From the IMG/VR virus record IMGVR_UViG_3300033388_003318, positions 1 to 29,910 of that record: a stretch of DNA of 29,910 bases; one strand, given 5' to 3'. Shown here piece by piece: positions 3,534 to 25,570 of this stretch. Each line of letters starts with the position of its first letter. Position 1 is the first letter of the stretch. This DNA is from a virus. A program made the translations under genes and the position numbers. Below the pieces are notes generated by a model. It was given only the letters and a program-made list of their open reading frames with translations. It was not told the origin of the DNA and ran no database searches.

Positions 3534-6143
3534 TTAATTTCCCGCTATGGGTTGTTTGATTATGTAATAGGAATCCATAAAAGTTGGACTATTTAAAAAT
3601 GTACTTAGCATTTGATACGACATAAATCCATTATGAAGTACATTAAAAAGTTGGGCGTCCACAGCTTGTTTATTTCCATAATAGAATGCTAGTGCTTCTA
3701 TATCGGAATCCGATATTTTATACAAGTAGTCCCCATTTTCATCTGTTTCAGGAACAAAAGTATTTATACTTTTGCCTGAACGTAAATGTCTGTATAATTT
3801 GGGGTCGTGATGCGTAGCAATTATTTCCATCATTTCACGAAACCAAAATGTATATTGATTTAATATACCTTTAAATGTATTAGATATAACAACAGTACAG
3901 TATTCAATAGTATTTAATTCTTCGTTTAATAAATATACAGTTATAGAATGCCCAATCATAAAACCACTAAGCATATGATGTCCTCCAGTATCCCATAAGT
4001 GAGCTGCTAAATTTCCATCGCCGTCAAAAGTGTTTTCAACCCCTCCAAGAAGCCCAGGAATACCAATAATTTCAAAATGAGATTGAGCCTCAAGTACGTT
4101 TCCTCCACCAAAAGACGATGTAATAGAATAACCATAATTGACAGAAATATTACCGTTGTTCGTATTATCCGCTCTATATCTTTGTACTGCTCCTATACCT
4201 GGATATAATCCTAATGTGTTATGTAAACCATTAGTAATTGCATTGAAAGTAGCAGGATTTACCGGTGAAGTAGGAAACGTAGTTGTTAATGCAAAAGTAT
4301 CTGTGATAATAGAATTCCTTTTACGCAGACTTACTTCTCGATCACCAAAAAAATTATTGTATTGGTATTGGTATGTTTCTCCCTGTAACGAATAAAAAAT
4401 AGTAAATTGTTCAACCAGCTTTTGGTTAGCTTTAAGATATTCGTTTACATTCATAATGTAAGACTTAGTTATATAGGTTCCACTAACCGAATTCCAGAAA
4501 TATAATGATTGTGTTGTCCAAGGAAGTTTTGTGTCATTAAAAAGCCACGTACCCCTTCCTGAACCAAAACCGTATTGCTGGTCTTCTCCCTTAGTTTCTG
4601 TCAAATCAATTTCTGATATTTTGTAAAAAGGAAGAGGTACAGTTACTAATCCCTGAGTAGTCAGAGCATAAGAATATTGAGTAGAAAATGTATCTATGTA
4701 ATTCGTATGTAACCAGTTATCTCCAAATGGCACAGTTGAATTTCCTCCATCTACACGATCAAACATACCTACATGCAAAGTATTAAAAAAGGGATCAAAT
4801 CCGTAAAAACGGTCTTCAAACGGATCTCCTGAAGTTGGTGGAACTGCATCATTTATAAATTCAGTAACATAGTAATCAAAAGTTGAAAGTAATAAAACTC
4901 CAGAATTGTAAGTTGCCCATCCTTCTGGACTTTCTACGTGGACAACATCACCTACTTGTGGGATAAAATTATTATAACTTGCTTGTATACTGGTAACTGC
5001 TGCTGCAGTTCGGGTAGATGATGAATCTAATGTAAAAGTAAGATCCATAAGTGTATCAGTTACTTGGAGTAAAAAATCTTCTGTTGAAGTAGTAATAAGC
5101 CAAGCAGCAAAATTAGCATTAAAAGCAGTTAATCCGAATCCTGGAATATTTATATTAACTTCTGCAATAATTGTATTATCTTCGGTAATAACAATTAATT
5201 GATCCACGGAAACTTTAATGAGATTAGAAATATTCTTACGTAAAGTAATACTTCTACAAACATCTATGTAATCTAATAAACTGGCAGTAATAGCTACGTT
5301 ATCAGATATTCTTTTATGAAAAATATCTTGGTGTAAAAAATAATCTAGATTAAACCAAGCTTGCTCTTGTGCAGATTGCACATTAAAAAAATCATCTATA
5401 TTCACTATAGTAAAAGTATCTGATTCAGAATAATCATAAAAAGTAAAAGAGTCTTGCATATGTGCTATTAAATTATAAAAAATAGAATATATATGTTCAC
5501 GCCTAATAGTAAGAAGACCAGAAGTTTGTGATACTTCACCACCAGTGTTGTTAAAATATTGGTGTGCGCTATATAAAAAATTAAATAAATTTTCTATAGT
5601 ATCACTATCCGAAATCCATCTACCTGATCCAGTATTAAGTGTTGTTTTAGTTATTGTAGAAGTAGTAATAAATCCATCAGGATTTACATATCCATCTGTA
5701 CCTACCACTACTCCAGATATATCTTTTTGCATATCAAAATAGTTATTCCCTGATTGTATATCTTCATAATTATTATATTTAAATTCTTCTTGATCAGTAC
5801 GCAGCAAAGATGTTTCTATTGGATAATTACGGGAAGGAATAAAACTATGGGTATTAATTTCTCCAAATATAGTTTTTTGATACCTTAGTTTTATAGTACT
5901 TCCAAATGACGACATATGTTGTCCAATAGCATAATACGGACTATATTCAGGTAGTTTATTAATTATAATAGTTAAATATTTTTCTCCGTAAAAAACAAAT
6001 ACCACATCTTTGTCTGGTATATATGCAGTCTTTTTTTTCTTTTTCTTAGAATCAAGTTGCATAGCATTTTCGATGGTATCTAATTCATCTAATACAAAAG
6101 AAGTAACAGGAGGGCCTATAAATACTCTAGCTATTGCAGCCAT
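3534..6143 (-). CDS. Large AT-rich virion protein of unknown function (possible host-interaction protein)
   Basis: An 869-residue protein I do not recognise. It is rich in Asn, Tyr, Phe, Thr and Ile, beta-prone throughout and poor in Ala, quite unlike its neighbours. Base composition also differs: the 60 bases from 5341 contain 18 G/C, against 26 in the 60 bases from 13801. A run of six lysines occupies residues 33-38. Asp/Gly-rich turns such as NTFDGDGNLAAHLWDTGGHH may bind metal, but this is unproved. The start overlaps the giant protein's stop (TAATG), and the endolysin gene's TAA follows closely in the operon, so it belongs to the late virion module. Position after the ejection proteins and before lysis is where receptor-binding or tail-tip proteins often sit; that is only inference. 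Confidence 0.6.
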   Translation of the reverse strand: MAAIARVFIGPPVTSFVLDELDTIENAMQLDSKKKKKKTAYIPDKDVVFVFYGEKYLTIIINKLPEYSPYYAIGQHMSSFGSTIKLRYQKTIFGEINTHSFIPSRNYPIETSLLRTDQEEFKYNNYEDIQSGNNYFDMQKDISGVVVGTDGYVNPDGFITTSTITKTTLNTGSGRWISDSDTIENLFNFLYSAHQYFNNTGGEVSQTSGLLTIRREHIYSIFYNLIAHMQDSFTFYDYSESDTFTIVNIDDFFNVQSAQEQAWFNLDYFLHQDIFHKRISDNVAITASLLDYIDVCRSITLRKNISNLIKVSVDQLIVITEDNTIIAEVNINIPGFGLTAFNANFAAWLITTSTEDFLLQVTDTLMDLTFTLDSSSTRTAAAVTSIQASYNNFIPQVGDVVHVESPEGWATYNSGVLLLSTFDYYVTEFINDAVPPTSGDPFEDRFYGFDPFFNTLHVGMFDRVDGGNSTVPFGDNWLHTNYIDTFSTQYSYALTTQGLVTVPLPFYKISEIDLTETKGEDQQYGFGSGRGTWLFNDTKLPWTTQSLYFWNSVSGTYITKSYIMNVNEYLKANQKLVEQFTIFYSLQGETYQYQYNNFFGDREVSLRKRNSIITDTFALTTTFPTSPVNPATFNAITNGLHNTLGLYPGIGAVQRYRADNTNNGNISVNYGYSITSSFGGGNVLEAQSHFEIIGIPGLLGGVENTFDGDGNLAAHLWDTGGHHMLSGFMIGHSITVYLLNEELNTIEYCTVVISNTFKGILNQYTFWFREMMEIIATHHDPKLYRHLRSGKSINTFVPETDENGDYLYKISDSDIEALAFYYGNKQAVDAQLFNVLHNGFMSYQMLSTFLNSPTFMDSYYIIKQPIAGN

Positions 6144-9100
6144 TACTTCGTTCTCAAATTCTGAAAAGGCAGTATCTCCGCAGGATCAGTAAATAGTTGG
6201 AATGGGAACATAACACCGCCGAGCAATGCTTCTGCACCTGTACCACCATACTGTTGTGCTTGGTGAATATCGAATCCTTGTTGGTAGATACCAAACAAAC
6301 CAGATCGTTCCATTGAATTGAAAACATAATCAGTTGTATCCCAATTTTGTTTGTAAGCAGGGGTGCCACCGTATTTAATCAAGTCACGAAGTGAGTCGAT
6401 AAACAACAGTGCAGGGATGAACATCATCAGTCCTACCATCGGAGCAACCTGATTATGCTCACCCATTTCTGTGACTGCGCGACGCAGGATGCGATCATGG
6501 AATGAATACATGAATGCTTTCAAGTGGAACACCAGCATGTAATGCGGATCACTAGCCCAAATCGGCCGTTGAGCTGCGTTCGGTCGAAGGATTGCTTCAT
6601 CCACAAACTGGTTCATAGCTGCCCGAACCTTATCGTCTCGATCGCGTTCGTGTTGTGGGGCTTGTGAACGTTCCTGAAACGTAAGAATTCGTACTGATTT
6701 ACCATCAGGCGTCAGTAACACTTCTTCAGGAATGAGATTTAATTCTTCCAGATACCGGCGACTTGTATCGTTAGGATTTGAAGCATGTCGCGCAATAAAT
6801 GAATGAGATGCTCCGAGCGCCATACTACGAGTTAAGCGAGTCAATCCAGTTAATCCTGTCCATTTAAAGAAAGTATCGTTGACGTTACGCGCCCATGGAG
6901 CCATGTAAGTACCACCATATTCCCACTGTAGAGCCACATTTGTCATATGCGATTCAAGGATACCGAGAGCATTGGCAAGTTCGTGTACCTGCGACTGCTG
7001 GCCTGTGACGCTATTCCAGATCTCATTCATACCTGTCTTCAACGCTACACCCGTGTCTCGTAGTGATCCAGAGCGCACAGAGATGCCCAATGGGTCTGCC
7101 AGTGAAGTAAACATGGCCAGGCTGAGCAGGGCTAAGTTCCTAATAACAAGCACTGTAGATAAGACTTGTTGAACTGCTGGATTAATCTTTTGTTCAGGCG
7201 GTGGCGCTTTAAGCCCAAGCATATTGGCGAGCGCCTGATTTGTTTCATGACCAGTGATACCCATCATCGCTTGAATGTAACTATGCATCAATTCGATATC
7301 GCCCTTGGTAGCTCCTAGTCTTTCAGCATCTTGAGTAATCTCAATAATCTTTTCATTGTTCTCACCGAAACGTTTGGTGTATTCCACGCGCTTGACTAAG
7401 GATTCAATGTAGTTGACCGTGATGTATTCCAAATCATTCGATATAAAACCCGCTTCACTAAGCACAGTATCAGGGACTTCTCCTAGCCCTCTTTCCTTAG
7501 CTACTCCTAAAGAAGGTTCATAAAGAAGTAGCCACTCTTCGATCTCGCGATCTTCCAGACCCAAAAGCCTATCAACTGCTTTCTCAGTGTCTTTGATACC
7601 ATATAACCCCAGGAGTGCTTCTAACTCATCACGTCTGTTAGCTACTTCCTCTTTGTTCCAGATACGAGGTACATAATTCTTTCGTAGTTTGACATCAACA
7701 CCATTATTATTGGCATAAGCATACATGGCATTAAAAATCTTTCTCATGCCGGCCGCTTCGTTGCTGGTATGTTTGCCAGTACGAAGATCTTCGAGAACCT
7801 GTGTCTTTTGTTCATCAGACAATGGTTTCAGTATGTTGGTTGCAGACGACAAGTACCGCCCTACGTTACGTTGCTTCTCTTGAAAATAACCCTGTTTAGT
7901 TAATCGTGTACCGGTACGCGAATGGAACATTTGTGCCAGTCTAATTAAGGCAGGATTCTTAGTTCCATACAATCGATCATTAGCTGAAATAAACACCTTT
8001 TCAAAAACGTTACCAATACTGGACATGAAATCTGCGATGCTTTCAGCGTCTTTAAATCGTTTTGCATCAGTCCGTTCAGTAGTAAGTTCAAGATCAGTAC
8101 GATGCCCCCATATAGCTTTACCTTGTTTAATTGCATCTAAAGCAGCGTTCTGCTTTTGCATATCTGTCTTACCATTGAGAGCAGTAGCAAGTTTGCCCAT
8201 CGCTTTCTCATATACAGAATGAACCTTTGGTCCTACTTGCAATTTACCGTGCGCCCACTGTATTAATCCCGCAGCCACAGTACGAGACACACTATTATCA
8301 AATGCTTCCAACGCTTTCGTAGGATAGAGATAAAACAACTGAGAACGAACGTTACCTTGAGTAAAGGCGCGACCCAGTAGATTTAAATCAGCTTTGGTAA
8401 AAATAGACGGTAGCATATTGCTGAGTGTTTCAATATCAGCCATGCTCTTAGGCGCTGATTTAATTAAATGGCTCATCAGCGTATCGTCAGTAACCTGCTT
8501 ATTCGCTCGCGCATATTCAAAGAATCGTTTGCCTCTATTGATGGCAGACGGAATCCAGTTACGTTGCTCGATGCTGTCAAGAAAGTCACGAACGCTGTCA
8601 GTGGTTTGACGCCCCATGAGCTTCTTAATTAGATTACTAATTTTCCTGAAGAATTTTCCAAGAGCAGTAGTCGGCTTAACCGATTCCCACACAGCTACCT
8701 GATCGGCAAACCACTCTTCAAAGTCGAGTAGGTATGCCTGATCTTCAACAGACAGAGTAGATACTGCTCTGTCTGTAGATTCGGTGATATATTTATACGC
8801 AGTGTTAAATGCAGCTTTAGACTGAACCACACTATGAACTGACTTGCCATGTACAGCTTCGCGCCACGCATCAAACTGTTTACGAATGCTGGTACGAATC
8901 TGAACACTGGCAGCACGCAACTCATTCTCGAAAATTCCATGCCCTAGTTCATGAGCAATGACCTCGCGCATGACTGCAGGAGATAGAGTTTCTTTAACCC
9001 AAATCTGGCCTTTGAAATACATACCGTTGGTTTCAAGTAACTGTTGGCGCGTCATGTTGAAGGCTTTCATAGCCTGTTCAGTTGACAACACCTCTGCACT

Positions 9101-12100
9101 ACTTTTGATTCGGTGTGCGACTTGCTTAACTGCAGCTACGATTGGCTTCAAAACATTACGCTGTGCTTTCTGATTACGCTTGGTTTTATCGCTTTCGCCC
9201 TTCACTGTCTGCTCGTCGAGCGTCAACGTGCGCGGCTCAGACTGGCGATTGACATAGAATTGTTTCAACTCCAATTGTTTTGTCTTGAGAGCGTTCTCTA
9301 ATGACTGATGTGTTTGAAACAGGTTCTGATATTTAATACGAAGTTGATCATCAGTTAAGAAGTCAGCTTCATTTAAAGCAGTTTGTGCTTCTACAACTTC
9401 ATTTTGTAAACGGGTATACGCAGATATCTCCGCAGCATTGGCGAAGTGGGTAATATTCTCTTTATCCTTTTCGAAGCCGAATAATTCTTCAAATTCCGTT
9501 TTCTGTTTAGATTGGAATTCGTCTTTAGAAGATTCAATTTCCTTAACCAAATGAGGCGAGTATTTCCGCAACTCTTCTGTAATGAATAGATCAGGGCCTT
9601 TGCTCGCTTTATCGAGCTTACGCATCTCACCAAGTAAGAACTCACGACTAATATTTTTGTTCGTGATTTTTTCATCTTGTTTGCGTACTTGTGCGAAACT
9701 TTTAGCGTATGCCTTAACAGACGGACTAATTTCTTTAAACACTTTAGCGTTCTTTTTAAAGAAAGCGCTATGTTGTTCAAGTTGCTTTTCAATAACCGCT
9801 ACTCGTTGTTTAGATGCCGTATTCAAACGCTTGGCTTCTTTTTTATACCGAGTTACCATAGAAACCAGTGTCTGTTTGTCGGCAGCAAGTTCATCTAGGA
9901 TGTATTGTTGTTCCTGCACTAAACTATCATGCATCTCTTCAGCAGCAGCCAACCCAATTGTAGGATCGTTTTTAGTTGTCTGCATTTGGAACTCAAAGCG
10001 TTCGCCTGGTTCGTTCAACCGCGCCTTCTCTGCAGTAGTTTCTGTAATCTCTATATTTATAGCTGCCTGAACTTCGCTTACCAACTTGGTAAACTTTTCG
10101 ATCTTAATAGGACCCTTGTCGTCGTTTATAAACGGAACACGACTAAACGTACTTTGAAGTTTACCAACTTCTGCTTCTTGAGCTGATTTAAATTGATATT
10201 GTAGTAAACTAGCTTCTGCAAATTTATGACCAGACATTAGTGTAAAATTTATACGCCGTTGCAAATACTGATTTCCTAAAGATGAAGCTAGTTTACCTTC
10301 GAGATTTCCAGTAGCATTCTGTGCAAGCGTTTGCAGATCGCCGGAAAATAGTTTATTCCCTTCAATTATTTTCTGAAGAGCATCTTTCTCAATACCTGCC
10401 AGTTTATCCAATTCTATTTTATCTGAAACAAGCCCCTGCAATTCAGCATCGTTTTTAATAAAATCATGTATAGTTTGTTTCGCATATAATTCTGCTCGCT
10501 TCGCAGCAGCCTGGCTTCGTGTAATCTCCTTAATACGTGACGAGATTGCAGCAATATAGGCAGGCTTCTGCTTCCGACCTTCATCAGCTTTTAAACGATT
10601 TAACAGAACCTCGGCTCCGCTTTTAGCCATCTTCAATTCGCGTTCAGTAGAGATAGCGCCAATCTCGCCAATGGTAAATGGATGCTTGCTGGCATCCGTA
10701 AACACAATGGTATCATTTGTAAAAGATGCATTGATTAACGAGATATTCTCATTAATCATCAGATCAGCTAATCCTGAACTAAATGCAGCAGCAACAGTTT
10801 CTTTGTCATACTTACGCCCCTGTCCACCAAATAGTTTTTGGAAATTCTTTTGAATCATTGAATGAGGACGGATGCCTACAGGATCTCCTGCTTCGTCTTT
10901 TCCGAACAAAAGGAAACGGGAAGATGGATCATTGGAACGCAATAAACGAAAGTCTTTTGAAGTAGGAGTTGAAGTCTTTTTAAACAACGCCTTTCCTTCT
11001 TTTGATAGTCCTGACTCCTTCCTGATAACAGCGCTTTGCTTACGCTTATCCAATTCCTTCTTCAGATCACTCTGGCGTTTCATTAAACCAGCCAGTTCCG
11101 TGTCATTAAAAATCTGTTGAAGTTGGAAACGCTCATCTGCAACCGCATCACGAGCATTAATAAAATCTTTCTTGTTATCTCCTGTTATTTCCATACCACG
11201 AGCTTGCATTAATTCTTGCACTCGCGGATCGCTAAGCGGGTTACCTGCTTTGATTTTAGTTTCAAGTTTGTTTATATCATCCAGTTGCTGACGGAAACTT
11301 TCTTGACTAGGATCTATCGCTTTCAGATTATCTATTTCTGTACTGATACTAGCGAATGCTCGCGCACGTGATTCTTTTTCGGAAGGCGTTTGCTCATTTC
11401 TAATCTGATCGGCAGTTAATGTTTCAGGTTCGCTAGATCGTAACGCAGCTGGTTTATTTGTACGCTCTATAAATACACGACCTTTTAAATGCGCTTCTAC
11501 CTTCTCAATAGTATCGATGGTAGTTGGATCAACTTGTTTATTTTTAGACAAAGTACGCATTCGTAAATTATCATCTTGCGCAAGACGAATAATTTCTGCT
11601 TCTTTTGTACCTTCTAATTCTCCATTACTTTCAAGTTGAGCAGCGCGTTCTTGAAAAGCATCAAAAGCAGAACGCTTTCTAAAAGCAACGTTGGGATTTT
11701 CTTTTTCTAATTTTACTTTGTTTCGATCTGCAAAAAAAGCGGCTGTCATCGGCTCCTTTGTTTTGGGATCGATAGCAACTTCCCCTGTTTTGGAATCTAT
11801 TTTATCTGTAAATGCTACGTTGGAATCAGAATCGCCAAGGATACTATTCTTATCAGTAGTGAATAATTCATTGCTTGATACAGTGAGTTCATTCTCAGCT
11901 TCATCCAGTTCGATAGTCTCGGGCGCTTCTTTAACTGTATCTTCTTGTACGCGTTGACGTATAGGAAGCGAAAGCGTTTCCCTCGGGGCAGCGCGATCGA
12001 TTACATCAAGACCAGCAGATATCTCAGCAGTTTTGTCTACTATAGGAGGTTTTTTCTTACGATCTATTTTTACAGTAGCGGGATCAATTGCAGTTGGAAA

Positions 12101-13216
12101 CCCTTCCTTTGTAACAAAACGAGAAAACTTTGGTCGACGTAGATTTAGTTCTTTAAGAATAGAATCCAGATCATCCTGAACTTCAGCATCAGCCAGATCG
12201 AAATCCTGTAGATAATCTAAATGTTCCTGTACTTCTTCATTGTCTACTTTTCGAAGCTTATCGAAAGTAGCTTCAGCTTGTGAAACTTTGTCAGAACTCT
12301 CTTGATCCAATTCAGCCATGCGCGAACTAATAATTCCAGGCGCGGCTGATGCACCACCGACTATGCCGCCAAAAGCAGCACCAATCGTACCAGCACCAAG
12401 AATTTCGTTTATACCCTCAGGGCCAAGAATCTCGAAGTGTTTATTAACGAAATTATGAGTAGCACGTTCGATGACTGTTTGTGCAGCTTCGGTACTACCC
12501 TCAACCAGAGCTTGAGTTCCCATACCCTTACCCAATTCCTTTAGTTTGCTGGTTAGCTCTTTACGCGCAGATAGTCCTAATCCGAATCTACGAGCAGCAA
12601 TCATTAAAGGAAGTGTATCAAGAGCGGCGGCGGGTACACCACCTGCAAAGGAAATACCGGCTAATTCACTAAGTGATTTGGTTCGTCGAGCTTCAGGATC
12701 GTTGACTAATCCACTGAAAATACCACCGGCTTCCATTCCTTCGGTTACAGCAAACGCGCCGGCACCGCCAGCTGCTGTTTTCGAGACACCACTTTTCAGA
12801 AGACTTTTTACACCGAGTCCTCCCACACCACCGGCTGCAGCTGCTGCAAAGGTCGGAACTGCTTGTCCGATACCGCCTTTTAAGAAGTCAGTAAAATTCT
12901 CGAAGGATTTGGTAGCCGTATCGAAATCAGTAACACGCGGACCAATCTCTCCTGCGCGTTGAAAACGTCGATTAGCTTGTTGAGTTTGTTCTTCAGAAAA
13001 ATCATCAGCACCAACGATCGCAGCACCAGCCGCTACTGCTGAACTACCGAGTCCTTTGACTTGCTCAATACCTGAACGTAATCCTTTTGCGAATTCTCCA
13101 GCCTCTGTTGTAACCGGAGTTGTAGCAATATTTTGCCTAAGAGCAGACGATCCACCACCTGAATTATCAGCAACGAACCTTCGTGCGCCCGTTTTTGGAT
13201 CTATAATTATGGGCAT
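6143..13216 (-). CDS. Giant internal virion protein with HELGH metallopeptidase motif
   Basis: A 2357-residue protein, nearly a quarter of the window. The N-terminal ~300 residues include Ala/Gly-rich apolar stretches (about 115-170 and 276-295) that could cross a membrane. Residues ~300-1400 are mostly charged helix and coiled coil. A zincin motif VIAHELGHGIF places H1422, E1423 and H1426, and FEEWFADQV (E1500, E1501, D1505) supplies a plausible third ligand. A long helical region follows, with apolar segments near 2012-2045 and 2255-2285. The C-terminus (MERSGLFGIYQQGFDIHQAQ) resembles the LPD38-type ends of large polyvalent phage proteins of the PLxRFG group, though that signature itself is absent. 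Likely role: packed with DNA, ejected at infection, possibly degrading peptidoglycan or protein or forming a conduit. The metal site is visible; the substrate is not. Confidence 0.8.
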   Translation of the reverse strand: MPIIIDPKTGARRFVADNSGGGSSALRQNIATTPVTTEAGEFAKGLRSGIEQVKGLGSSAVAAGAAIVGADDFSEEQTQQANRRFQRAGEIGPRVTDFDTATKSFENFTDFLKGGIGQAVPTFAAAAAGGVGGLGVKSLLKSGVSKTAAGGAGAFAVTEGMEAGGIFSGLVNDPEARRTKSLSELAGISFAGGVPAAALDTLPLMIAARRFGLGLSARKELTSKLKELGKGMGTQALVEGSTEAAQTVIERATHNFVNKHFEILGPEGINEILGAGTIGAAFGGIVGGASAAPGIISSRMAELDQESSDKVSQAEATFDKLRKVDNEEVQEHLDYLQDFDLADAEVQDDLDSILKELNLRRPKFSRFVTKEGFPTAIDPATVKIDRKKKPPIVDKTAEISAGLDVIDRAAPRETLSLPIRQRVQEDTVKEAPETIELDEAENELTVSSNELFTTDKNSILGDSDSNVAFTDKIDSKTGEVAIDPKTKEPMTAAFFADRNKVKLEKENPNVAFRKRSAFDAFQERAAQLESNGELEGTKEAEIIRLAQDDNLRMRTLSKNKQVDPTTIDTIEKVEAHLKGRVFIERTNKPAALRSSEPETLTADQIRNEQTPSEKESRARAFASISTEIDNLKAIDPSQESFRQQLDDINKLETKIKAGNPLSDPRVQELMQARGMEITGDNKKDFINARDAVADERFQLQQIFNDTELAGLMKRQSDLKKELDKRKQSAVIRKESGLSKEGKALFKKTSTPTSKDFRLLRSNDPSSRFLLFGKDEAGDPVGIRPHSMIQKNFQKLFGGQGRKYDKETVAAAFSSGLADLMINENISLINASFTNDTIVFTDASKHPFTIGEIGAISTERELKMAKSGAEVLLNRLKADEGRKQKPAYIAAISSRIKEITRSQAAAKRAELYAKQTIHDFIKNDAELQGLVSDKIELDKLAGIEKDALQKIIEGNKLFSGDLQTLAQNATGNLEGKLASSLGNQYLQRRINFTLMSGHKFAEASLLQYQFKSAQEAEVGKLQSTFSRVPFINDDKGPIKIEKFTKLVSEVQAAINIEITETTAEKARLNEPGERFEFQMQTTKNDPTIGLAAAEEMHDSLVQEQQYILDELAADKQTLVSMVTRYKKEAKRLNTASKQRVAVIEKQLEQHSAFFKKNAKVFKEISPSVKAYAKSFAQVRKQDEKITNKNISREFLLGEMRKLDKASKGPDLFITEELRKYSPHLVKEIESSKDEFQSKQKTEFEELFGFEKDKENITHFANAAEISAYTRLQNEVVEAQTALNEADFLTDDQLRIKYQNLFQTHQSLENALKTKQLELKQFYVNRQSEPRTLTLDEQTVKGESDKTKRNQKAQRNVLKPIVAAVKQVAHRIKSSAEVLSTEQAMKAFNMTRQQLLETNGMYFKGQIWVKETLSPAVMREVIAHELGHGIFENELRAASVQIRTSIRKQFDAWREAVHGKSVHSVVQSKAAFNTAYKYITESTDRAVSTLSVEDQAYLLDFEEWFADQVAVWESVKPTTALGKFFRKISNLIKKLMGRQTTDSVRDFLDSIEQRNWIPSAINRGKRFFEYARANKQVTDDTLMSHLIKSAPKSMADIETLSNMLPSIFTKADLNLLGRAFTQGNVRSQLFYLYPTKALEAFDNSVSRTVAAGLIQWAHGKLQVGPKVHSVYEKAMGKLATALNGKTDMQKQNAALDAIKQGKAIWGHRTDLELTTERTDAKRFKDAESIADFMSSIGNVFEKVFISANDRLYGTKNPALIRLAQMFHSRTGTRLTKQGYFQEKQRNVGRYLSSATNILKPLSDEQKTQVLEDLRTGKHTSNEAAGMRKIFNAMYAYANNNGVDVKLRKNYVPRIWNKEEVANRRDELEALLGLYGIKDTEKAVDRLLGLEDREIEEWLLLYEPSLGVAKERGLGEVPDTVLSEAGFISNDLEYITVNYIESLVKRVEYTKRFGENNEKIIEITQDAERLGATKGDIELMHSYIQAMMGITGHETNQALANMLGLKAPPPEQKINPAVQQVLSTVLVIRNLALLSLAMFTSLADPLGISVRSGSLRDTGVALKTGMNEIWNSVTGQQSQVHELANALGILESHMTNVALQWEYGGTYMAPWARNVNDTFFKWTGLTGLTRLTRSMALGASHSFIARHASNPNDTSRRYLEELNLIPEEVLLTPDGKSVRILTFQERSQAPQHERDRDDKVRAAMNQFVDEAILRPNAAQRPIWASDPHYMLVFHLKAFMYSFHDRILRRAVTEMGEHNQVAPMVGLMMFIPALLFIDSLRDLIKYGGTPAYKQNWDTTDYVFNSMERSGLFGIYQQGFDIHQAQQYGGTGAEALLGGVMFPFQLFTDPAEILPFQNLRTK

Positions 13217-20832: not shown

Positions 20833-21249
20833 TTAAGCACTGAGGTCGAACTGCGTAACTGTTACTTGATCAGCAATAGCAATAGTAGTAGTTGACAGAT
20901 TCAAATCTGAACCTGAAGCAGCTACATCACCATCAATTCGAACATCAGTAGCACTTGAACCACCACCATCAGTTGATTGCTTTAATCGAAACCACGTTGC
21001 GGTACCAGCAGCAACAGCAGAAGCATCAGTCCACGGTGTATTCCCTACAATCGCACCACCTGAAGCAGCAGCGAATGAATCGGAAACCAAAGTAAAATCT
21101 GATAGTACTGTACCTACTGGGGCGTCATCTGCAGAAGCAGGACGTGTCCCATCTCGAATTTCAAGAATGTCGTTAGCACCATCGAATGCAGCGCCAATAC
21201 CGGAATCTAAAAGAAGATTCGCAGCACCTGTTGATAAACCAATAGCCAT
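20833..21249 (-). CDS. Small virion protein, paralogue B
   Basis: A 138-residue protein, paralogue of the gene before it. Both begin MA+LSTG and share the order of blocks: ILEIRDGTRPASADDAPVGT, then AAGTATWFRLKQ, VRIDGDVAASGSDLNLSTTT and VTVTQFDLSA. The start ATG at 21249 has its own AAGGAG ribosome site in a 12-base spacer, so it can be translated independently of paralogue A. The Gly/Ser-rich stretch GGGSS replaces the EAAGNPA region of paralogue A, probably a surface loop. Function is unknown. Beta-only composition and position in the tail module suggest a structural role. Confidence 0.65.
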   Translation of the reverse strand: MAIGLSTGAANLLLDSGIGAAFDGANDILEIRDGTRPASADDAPVGTVLSDFTLVSDSFAAASGGAIVGNTPWTDASAVAAGTATWFRLKQSTDGGGSSATDVRIDGDVAASGSDLNLSTTTIAIADQVTVTQFDLSA

Positions 21250-21261
21250 AGTAATTTCTCC

Positions 21262-21708
21262 TTACGATGCAGGTAGGGTGACATCAAAAGTCGAAACGGT
21301 TTGAACCGTGCCGATTGTGATGGTAGTGCTAGACATATTCATATTAGCACCTGAGGTTGAGATGTTGCCATCTATACGCGACTCTGTAGTAGACAGAATC
21401 GCAGGATTGCCGGCTGCTTCCCATAATCGATACCAACCAGCCGTACCGGTAGCTAACGCGGTACCCGCCCAGGTTTCAGCAACTGCTTTCGCAATTGTTC
21501 CTGCAATTGGGGAATCGAAACTTATCCCAATAGTATCAGTCGGGTTGTTTGAGTAAATGGTGGCGAGTAATGTACCAGAAGCCGCTTGATCCGCGTCGGC
21601 TGGTTGAGTACCCGTATAAATATTAATGAAAGAAAGTGCGAACTCGGTCTGGAAATCAGCTGTATCCAGAAGAGCCTGCCGTATTCCAGTTGATAAACGT
21701 AAAGCCAT
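21262..21708 (-). CDS. Small virion protein, paralogue A
   Basis: A 148-residue protein, paralogous to the next gene. Shared features in the same order are L+STG followed by LLD near the N-terminus, an I-x-I..GT.PA-ADQAASGTLL segment, a GTAxWYRLW strand, a RIDG turn, and a final SG..MN.SSTTITIG...V..FDV module. All predicted secondary structure is beta strand, like small trimeric or decoration-type proteins widely seen in podovirus and siphovirus tail regions without assigned function. It follows the nozzle gene with a 2-base gap. No enzymatic residues stand out. It is probably a tail or head accessory virion protein; duplication suggests the two copies occupy related but distinct positions. 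Confidence 0.65.
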   Translation of the reverse strand: MALRLSTGIRQALLDTADFQTEFALSFINIYTGTQPADADQAASGTLLATIYSNNPTDTIGISFDSPIAGTIAKAVAETWAGTALATGTAGWYRLWEAAGNPAILSTTESRIDGNISTSGANMNMSSTTITIGTVQTVSTFDVTLPAS

Positions 21709-24483: not shown

Positions 24484-24491
24484 ACCTCCTT
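24484..24491 (-). promoter_or_regulatory. Consensus ribosome binding site of the decoration-like gene
   Basis: AAGGAGGT on the minus strand, 8 bases ahead of the ATG at 24475 and overlapping the capsid TAA (24490-24492). It is the closest match to the full anti-Shine-Dalgarno consensus seen in the window, consistent with a protein needed in high copy. Confidence 0.75.
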
Positions 24492-25570
24492 AAAGTGCGC
24501 AGTTAATGACAAGAACACCGAAATCTTCGGAGGTGCCAGTAACTTGTGAGTGGAATACGGGCTTCTTCAGACCACAGATTTTGCCAACCGAAATACCTTG
24601 CTGGTTGTCATAATCGTAACCTTTTTCTACCCAGTACGCGTCGCCGATGTCAGCATAACCCATAGCTTGAGCACCACATAACAGAACGGCAGTACCGTCG
24701 AGTACAGAAGTAGCTCCCCACTTCGAACCTGAGGCAGCGTTCTTAGTGTTGTACACATGACGATATTCATAAATGGACAAGCCATCAACGTGAATAACTT
24801 CCGTACTAGTGAACAAAGGGTTTTTACCAGATCGAGGCATTGCTGAACGCCAAGCTGCAAGAAAGTCGCTGTCCAACTTCAACTTCGCGATACTTTGCGG
24901 AGTCATAAAGACATTGTACATTTCAGTGCCTGCTTCGCCACGGATCGGCCGAATGAAGTTATCGACGGCATAAGCCTTCGCTTCAACAAGCATTTTCCAT
25001 GAGGGAGTATCGGCAGCGGCTACATCAGCGGTAGTGTTATTACCGGTGACAGCATCTTTCAAAACAAATGCGGTACCATCCCAACGAGTCTCGCGATTCG
25101 TAGAAGGAACAGTAGTATCAGCTGCATAATCCAAGTTAGCAAGGTCAGAACCAACGCGAGCCACACCTTTGTTCGTCTGAGTATACGGACGACCAGAGAG
25201 GGTGAGAAAAGCTAATTGATCCATTCGATCCGCCAGCCAGTAGGCCAGAACATCGCGTGAGTTTTCTCTGAAAGTAACAACCGACTTCTGATCCGCCATG
25301 CGGCCTTCATGTCGATTGGCATGACGAAGTTGATCGATGCGAATTACTTGATCGTAACTCTTCATCGCTTCTTCATTACCTTCCAGAGTACGGTCACCTG
25401 CAACACCATCGCCTTCGAGATCAGCAACAAGTGTTAGGACGGCCCGTGCGCCCTTTTCGTTCTTAGGTGAAACGTTCCAAGAACATCCAGTTACGAGCAG
25501 CTTTCCACATGTCTCGCGACCAAATGGTAAGTTCCTCATTCGTCAGAGCTGCAAAATTTGTCAAAGACAT
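24490..25570 (-). CDS. Major capsid protein, N4-gp56 family; reading frame broken near 25463
   Basis: This is the shell-forming capsid protein. The body in the downstream frame carries hallmarks of the N4-gp56 family: GARAVLTLVADLEGDGVAGD, LEGNEEAMKSYDQVIRIDQL, NRHEGRMADQKS, then YNVFMTP and YRHVYNT. The true start is the ATG at 25570, preceded by a GGAGTG ribosome site. It encodes the matching family N-terminus MSLTNFAALTNEELTIW up to FLERFT and meets a TAA at 25463-25465 after 35 codons. The remainder continues one base out of phase with SPKNEKG. The only ATG opening that second frame (25539) has no ribosome site, and its first ~20 residues do not fit the family. From memory, homologues have about 14 extra residues between FT and the KNEKG segment (a G.NA.IQRITEL-like stretch). 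The gap is therefore probably a deletion with frame change rather than a single miscalled base. It could be a real mutation, an assembly collapse or, less likely, recoding. Confidence 0.9.

Follow-up and report, generated by a model that had tools for sequence, protein, structure and literature searches.

Split major capsid frame in a contig of a KPP25-type phage: most probably a private, frame-shifting deletion

The capsid gene and its surroundings

Among the closest known relatives of the capsid described here is that of Pseudomonas phage KPP25 (Kochitakasuvirus), whose major head protein is a member of the Phage_capsid_3 family (PF13252). It is 57% identical to the capsid body encoded in the window (the whole stretch of 29,910 nucleotides that was analysed), and both phages share the gene order terminase, portal, one gene, capsid. 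However, KPP25 has a single intact capsid gene, whereas that of the window is split. At the DNA level, this region of the window gave no match to any named phage by blastn, and searches of the literature for capsids of this type and for deletions arising in assemblies yielded nothing relevant to the question.

In the window, a GGAG motif is located upstream of the ATG at 25570 on the minus strand, and the frame starting at this ATG encodes MSLTNFAALTNEELTIWSRDMWKAARNWMFLERFT, followed by a TAA codon at 25463-25465 (Table 1). This agreed with a preliminary description of the sequence, which had reported a well-initiated frame of 35 codons ending in FLERFT. The capsid body lies in another frame, which a mechanical list of open reading frames gives as 24490-25539, starting from an out-of-frame ATG. 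It matched the Pfam profile Phage_capsid_3 with an E-value of 6e-36 and 124.6 bits, from profile position 48 onward only, and this match together with the listed frame confirmed the earlier proposal that the body continues in the other frame. A functional major capsid gene would be read in one start-to-stop frame including the N-terminal segment; in the window, a stop occurs after 35 codons and 41 bases are gone.

Table 1. Features of the interrupted capsid gene (window positions).
Feature	Position	Strand	Description
Major capsid gene, 5' part	25463..25570	(-)	MSLTNFAAL...FLERFT (35 codons), then a premature TAA; 100% identity with sister capsid residues 1-35
Deletion junction	25466..25467	(-)	41 bases of the sister contig absent; placement uncertain by one base
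Remaining major capsid gene, shifted frame	24490..25461	(-)	KNEKG... to stop; Phage_capsid_3; 100% identity with sister capsid residues 50-373

Family assignment was based on a score above the gathering threshold over nearly the whole profile length. The intact protein of the sister contig presented below reached 133.5 bits in Phage_capsid_3 (Pfam PF13252), against a cut-off of 23, and covered profile positions 3-373 of 376. With the N4-gp56 equivalog (NCBIfam TIGR04387), the sister protein and the window capsid body scored 48.2 and 38.4 bits, respectively, below the curated cut-off of 60 bits. Judged by sequence, both capsids are related to the N4-gp56 family yet fall under the equivalog cut-off. 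Since the TIGR04387 score lies under this cut-off, it is safer to speak of a "KPP25-type, N4-gp56-related capsid" than of the "N4-gp56 family".

The window contains 27 contiguous, co-directional genes, with 98% of its length coding. The neighbours of the capsid gene code for a P22-type portal and for a large terminase, the latter represented by its C-terminal part, and no second capsid gene was found in the same record, which is a fragment. Elsewhere in the window, the adjacent genes at 20833-21249 and 21262-21708 code for related proteins (about 38% identity to each other) and represent a tandem duplication. The region 6143-13216 codes for a protein of 2,357 amino acids that has no Pfam match and resembles, in its C-terminal part, PHROG "virion structural protein" families (phrog_30152); it is probably a very large internal virion protein.

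An intact sister gene and conservation of the missing segment

A scan of IMG/VR retrieved contig 3300033144_001525 (L001; larger piece L082), in which the capsid residues flanking the break are identical to those of the window. This sister contig represents the same phage type with the same gene order, and the two are 99.9% identical over an overlap of 9,063 bases, with 10 substitutions (eight of them silent) and only one indel, located exactly at the capsid junction, where the window lacks 41 bases between 25467 and 25466. In the sister these bases are present and the capsid gene is one uninterrupted open frame of 373 codons, whereas the window lacks both. The absent stretch encodes GGNGAMIQKITELT, and the sister protein runs FLERFT-GGNGAMIQKITELT-KNEKG. 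As 41 cannot be divided by three, the capsid frame of the window shifts and the TAA comes at once. A loss of about 14 residues plus a frame change had been anticipated, and 13 codons and two bases are indeed missing relative to the 99.9%-identical contig; the stretch resembling G.NA.IQRITEL that had been expected between the two capsid parts was right in kind, the sister having GGNGAMIQKITELT there. Ten other proteins shared with the sister are full length, 99-100% identical and open throughout the overlap.

The missing segment was found in one uninterrupted frame in all 77 IMG/VR loci reaching upstream of the site; the other three of the 80 viral loci (L025, L033, and L037) are cut by contig ends. 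It was also present, without a stop, in 17 loci from bacterial genome assemblies and in KPP25, and a close relative whose capsid structure has been solved (PDB 26de, 44ny) has it as well. Since all these IMG/VR and bacterial-assembly loci and KPP25 are unsplit, a split common to the relatives was ruled out, and the search for homologues sharing the split frame, suggested in the preliminary description as a refuting check, came out negative. An alignment of 62 distinct proteins showed no variation at G36 and L48 and almost none at Q43, T46, and E47, with one further residue after G36 in most relatives. Structure modelling of the sister protein (mean pLDDT 71) placed the missing residues, including a short strand at 42-45, between an N-terminal helix (11-28) and a poorly modelled stretch (49-109), which in this model would probably correspond to the E-loop region. 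Four capsid-gene relatives (L088, L089, L092, and L098) are located on long contigs of Allochromatium, Uliginosibacterium, Herminiimonas, and Vreelandella genomes, which suggests the presence of integrated or co-assembled members of this phage group.

A 27-base string of the junction was present in no other IMG/VR contig, in searches from which the records nearest the window were possibly left out, and a 23-base string just downstream of the junction was found in IMG/VR only in the sister; the private status of the junction is thus defined by one near-identical sister plus more distant relatives. Because the frame is intact in the sister and in all relatives, and the junction occurs in no other IMG/VR contig, the split frame is almost certainly a private, frame-shifting, loss-of-function lesion of one contig, without a function of its own. 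A functional split, through ribosomal frameshifting, bypassing or other recoding, or a deliberately shorter capsid, would fit with both halves being otherwise perfectly conserved. However, the 14 missing residues (36-49) are not encoded at all, yet are conserved in every relative, the arrangement was found in no relative, and the 99.9%-identical contig has one plain frame, so that we give this explanation hardly any credence. Programmed translational recoding, in particular, would require two frames that together encode every conserved residue, in an arrangement that relatives also have. It was excluded, as the conserved residues lost here are encoded nowhere in the window and are in frame in every relative. 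Among the options listed in the preliminary description, those of an error, of a defective genome and of a mixed population therefore stand, as expected for an in-gene deletion in an essential gene, and an unusual recoding falls, since the missing conserved residues are uncoded.

The junction and its origin

The in-register ends of the deletion share one base, and the surrounding 50 bases match no better than chance. This 1-bp identity ruled out a deletion between short repeats, which had been proposed on the basis of a TTTCACC shared by both ends. That proposal had assumed an ancestral join reading ELSP (ELSPKNEKG), and the sister reads ELTKNEKG. No significant hairpin or fold was detected at the junction, the single-strand fold being ordinary and no better than shuffles (z 0.19), which ruled out hairpin-driven skipping. 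The missing bases were not found elsewhere in the window (longest common stretch, 10 nt), and their maintenance there as a cassette or template was consequently discarded. The left end of the missing stretch lies inside an 8-bp palindrome, CACCGGTG (L082:6775-6782; window junction 25466-25467), which we take to be a site of SgrAI type. The palindrome occurs just once in 11.4 kb of the sister contig, and its position at the deletion end is probably due to chance.

Since the blunt ends are too dissimilar to be joined by a k-mer or overlap assembler alone, actual DNA molecules or reads probably contained the junction. Whichever origin holds, the deletion is probably recent, since the rest of the window looks intact, the other shared proteins are 99-100% identical and eight of the 10 substitutions are silent. 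A technical artefact, in which the junction came from library preparation or assembly and the capsid gene of the sampled phage was intact, has close to an even chance. In its favour, the capsid is essential and no other lesion was found in the 29.9 kb, the gene is intact in a near-identical contig, and the junction was seen once; nevertheless, a blunt, repeat-free 1-bp junction is hard to generate by assembly alone and needs a chimeric molecule or a mis-merged read.

A clean deletion in an otherwise perfect sequence also resembles a spontaneous illegitimate deletion, as expected for a real capsid-minus genome, recently arisen and able to persist only if intact sisters complement it or if it is carried as an inactivated prophage. 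An intact sister genome does exist, and the capsid relatives on long bacterial-assembly contigs make prophage states plausible. On the other hand, there is no wider decay, as the ten other shared proteins attest, and in a lytic population one would not expect the consensus to be a capsid-null allele. General prophage decay was ruled out, no other lesion having been found in the window, and the 27 co-directional genes, the high coding density and the open shared proteins argue against a long-decayed prophage. We consider a mutant genome and a technical error about equally probable.

Consequences for the capsid

According to the preferred reading, a private lesion, a 41-base, essentially blunt deletion would have removed residues 36-49 and shifted the frame; translation from the normal start would terminate once 35 codons had been read, and a normal capsid protein could not be made. 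The carriers of the junction would be either capsid-minus phage genomes (complemented, or a damaged prophage) or a library chimera, which would then have become the consensus of a thinly covered contig. It seems very improbable that capsid-minus genomes are kept at high frequency in nature with the capsid provided in trans by intact sisters of the 3300033144_001525 type. Were the deletion to prove genuine and common, it would exemplify a defective phage sustained by complementation in nature. Caution is required in that the contig should not be cited as a case of capsid recoding, and annotations should mark its capsid gene as broken. Under either origin the finding is an ordinary one, and represents neither a new capsid architecture nor a new way of making a capsid.
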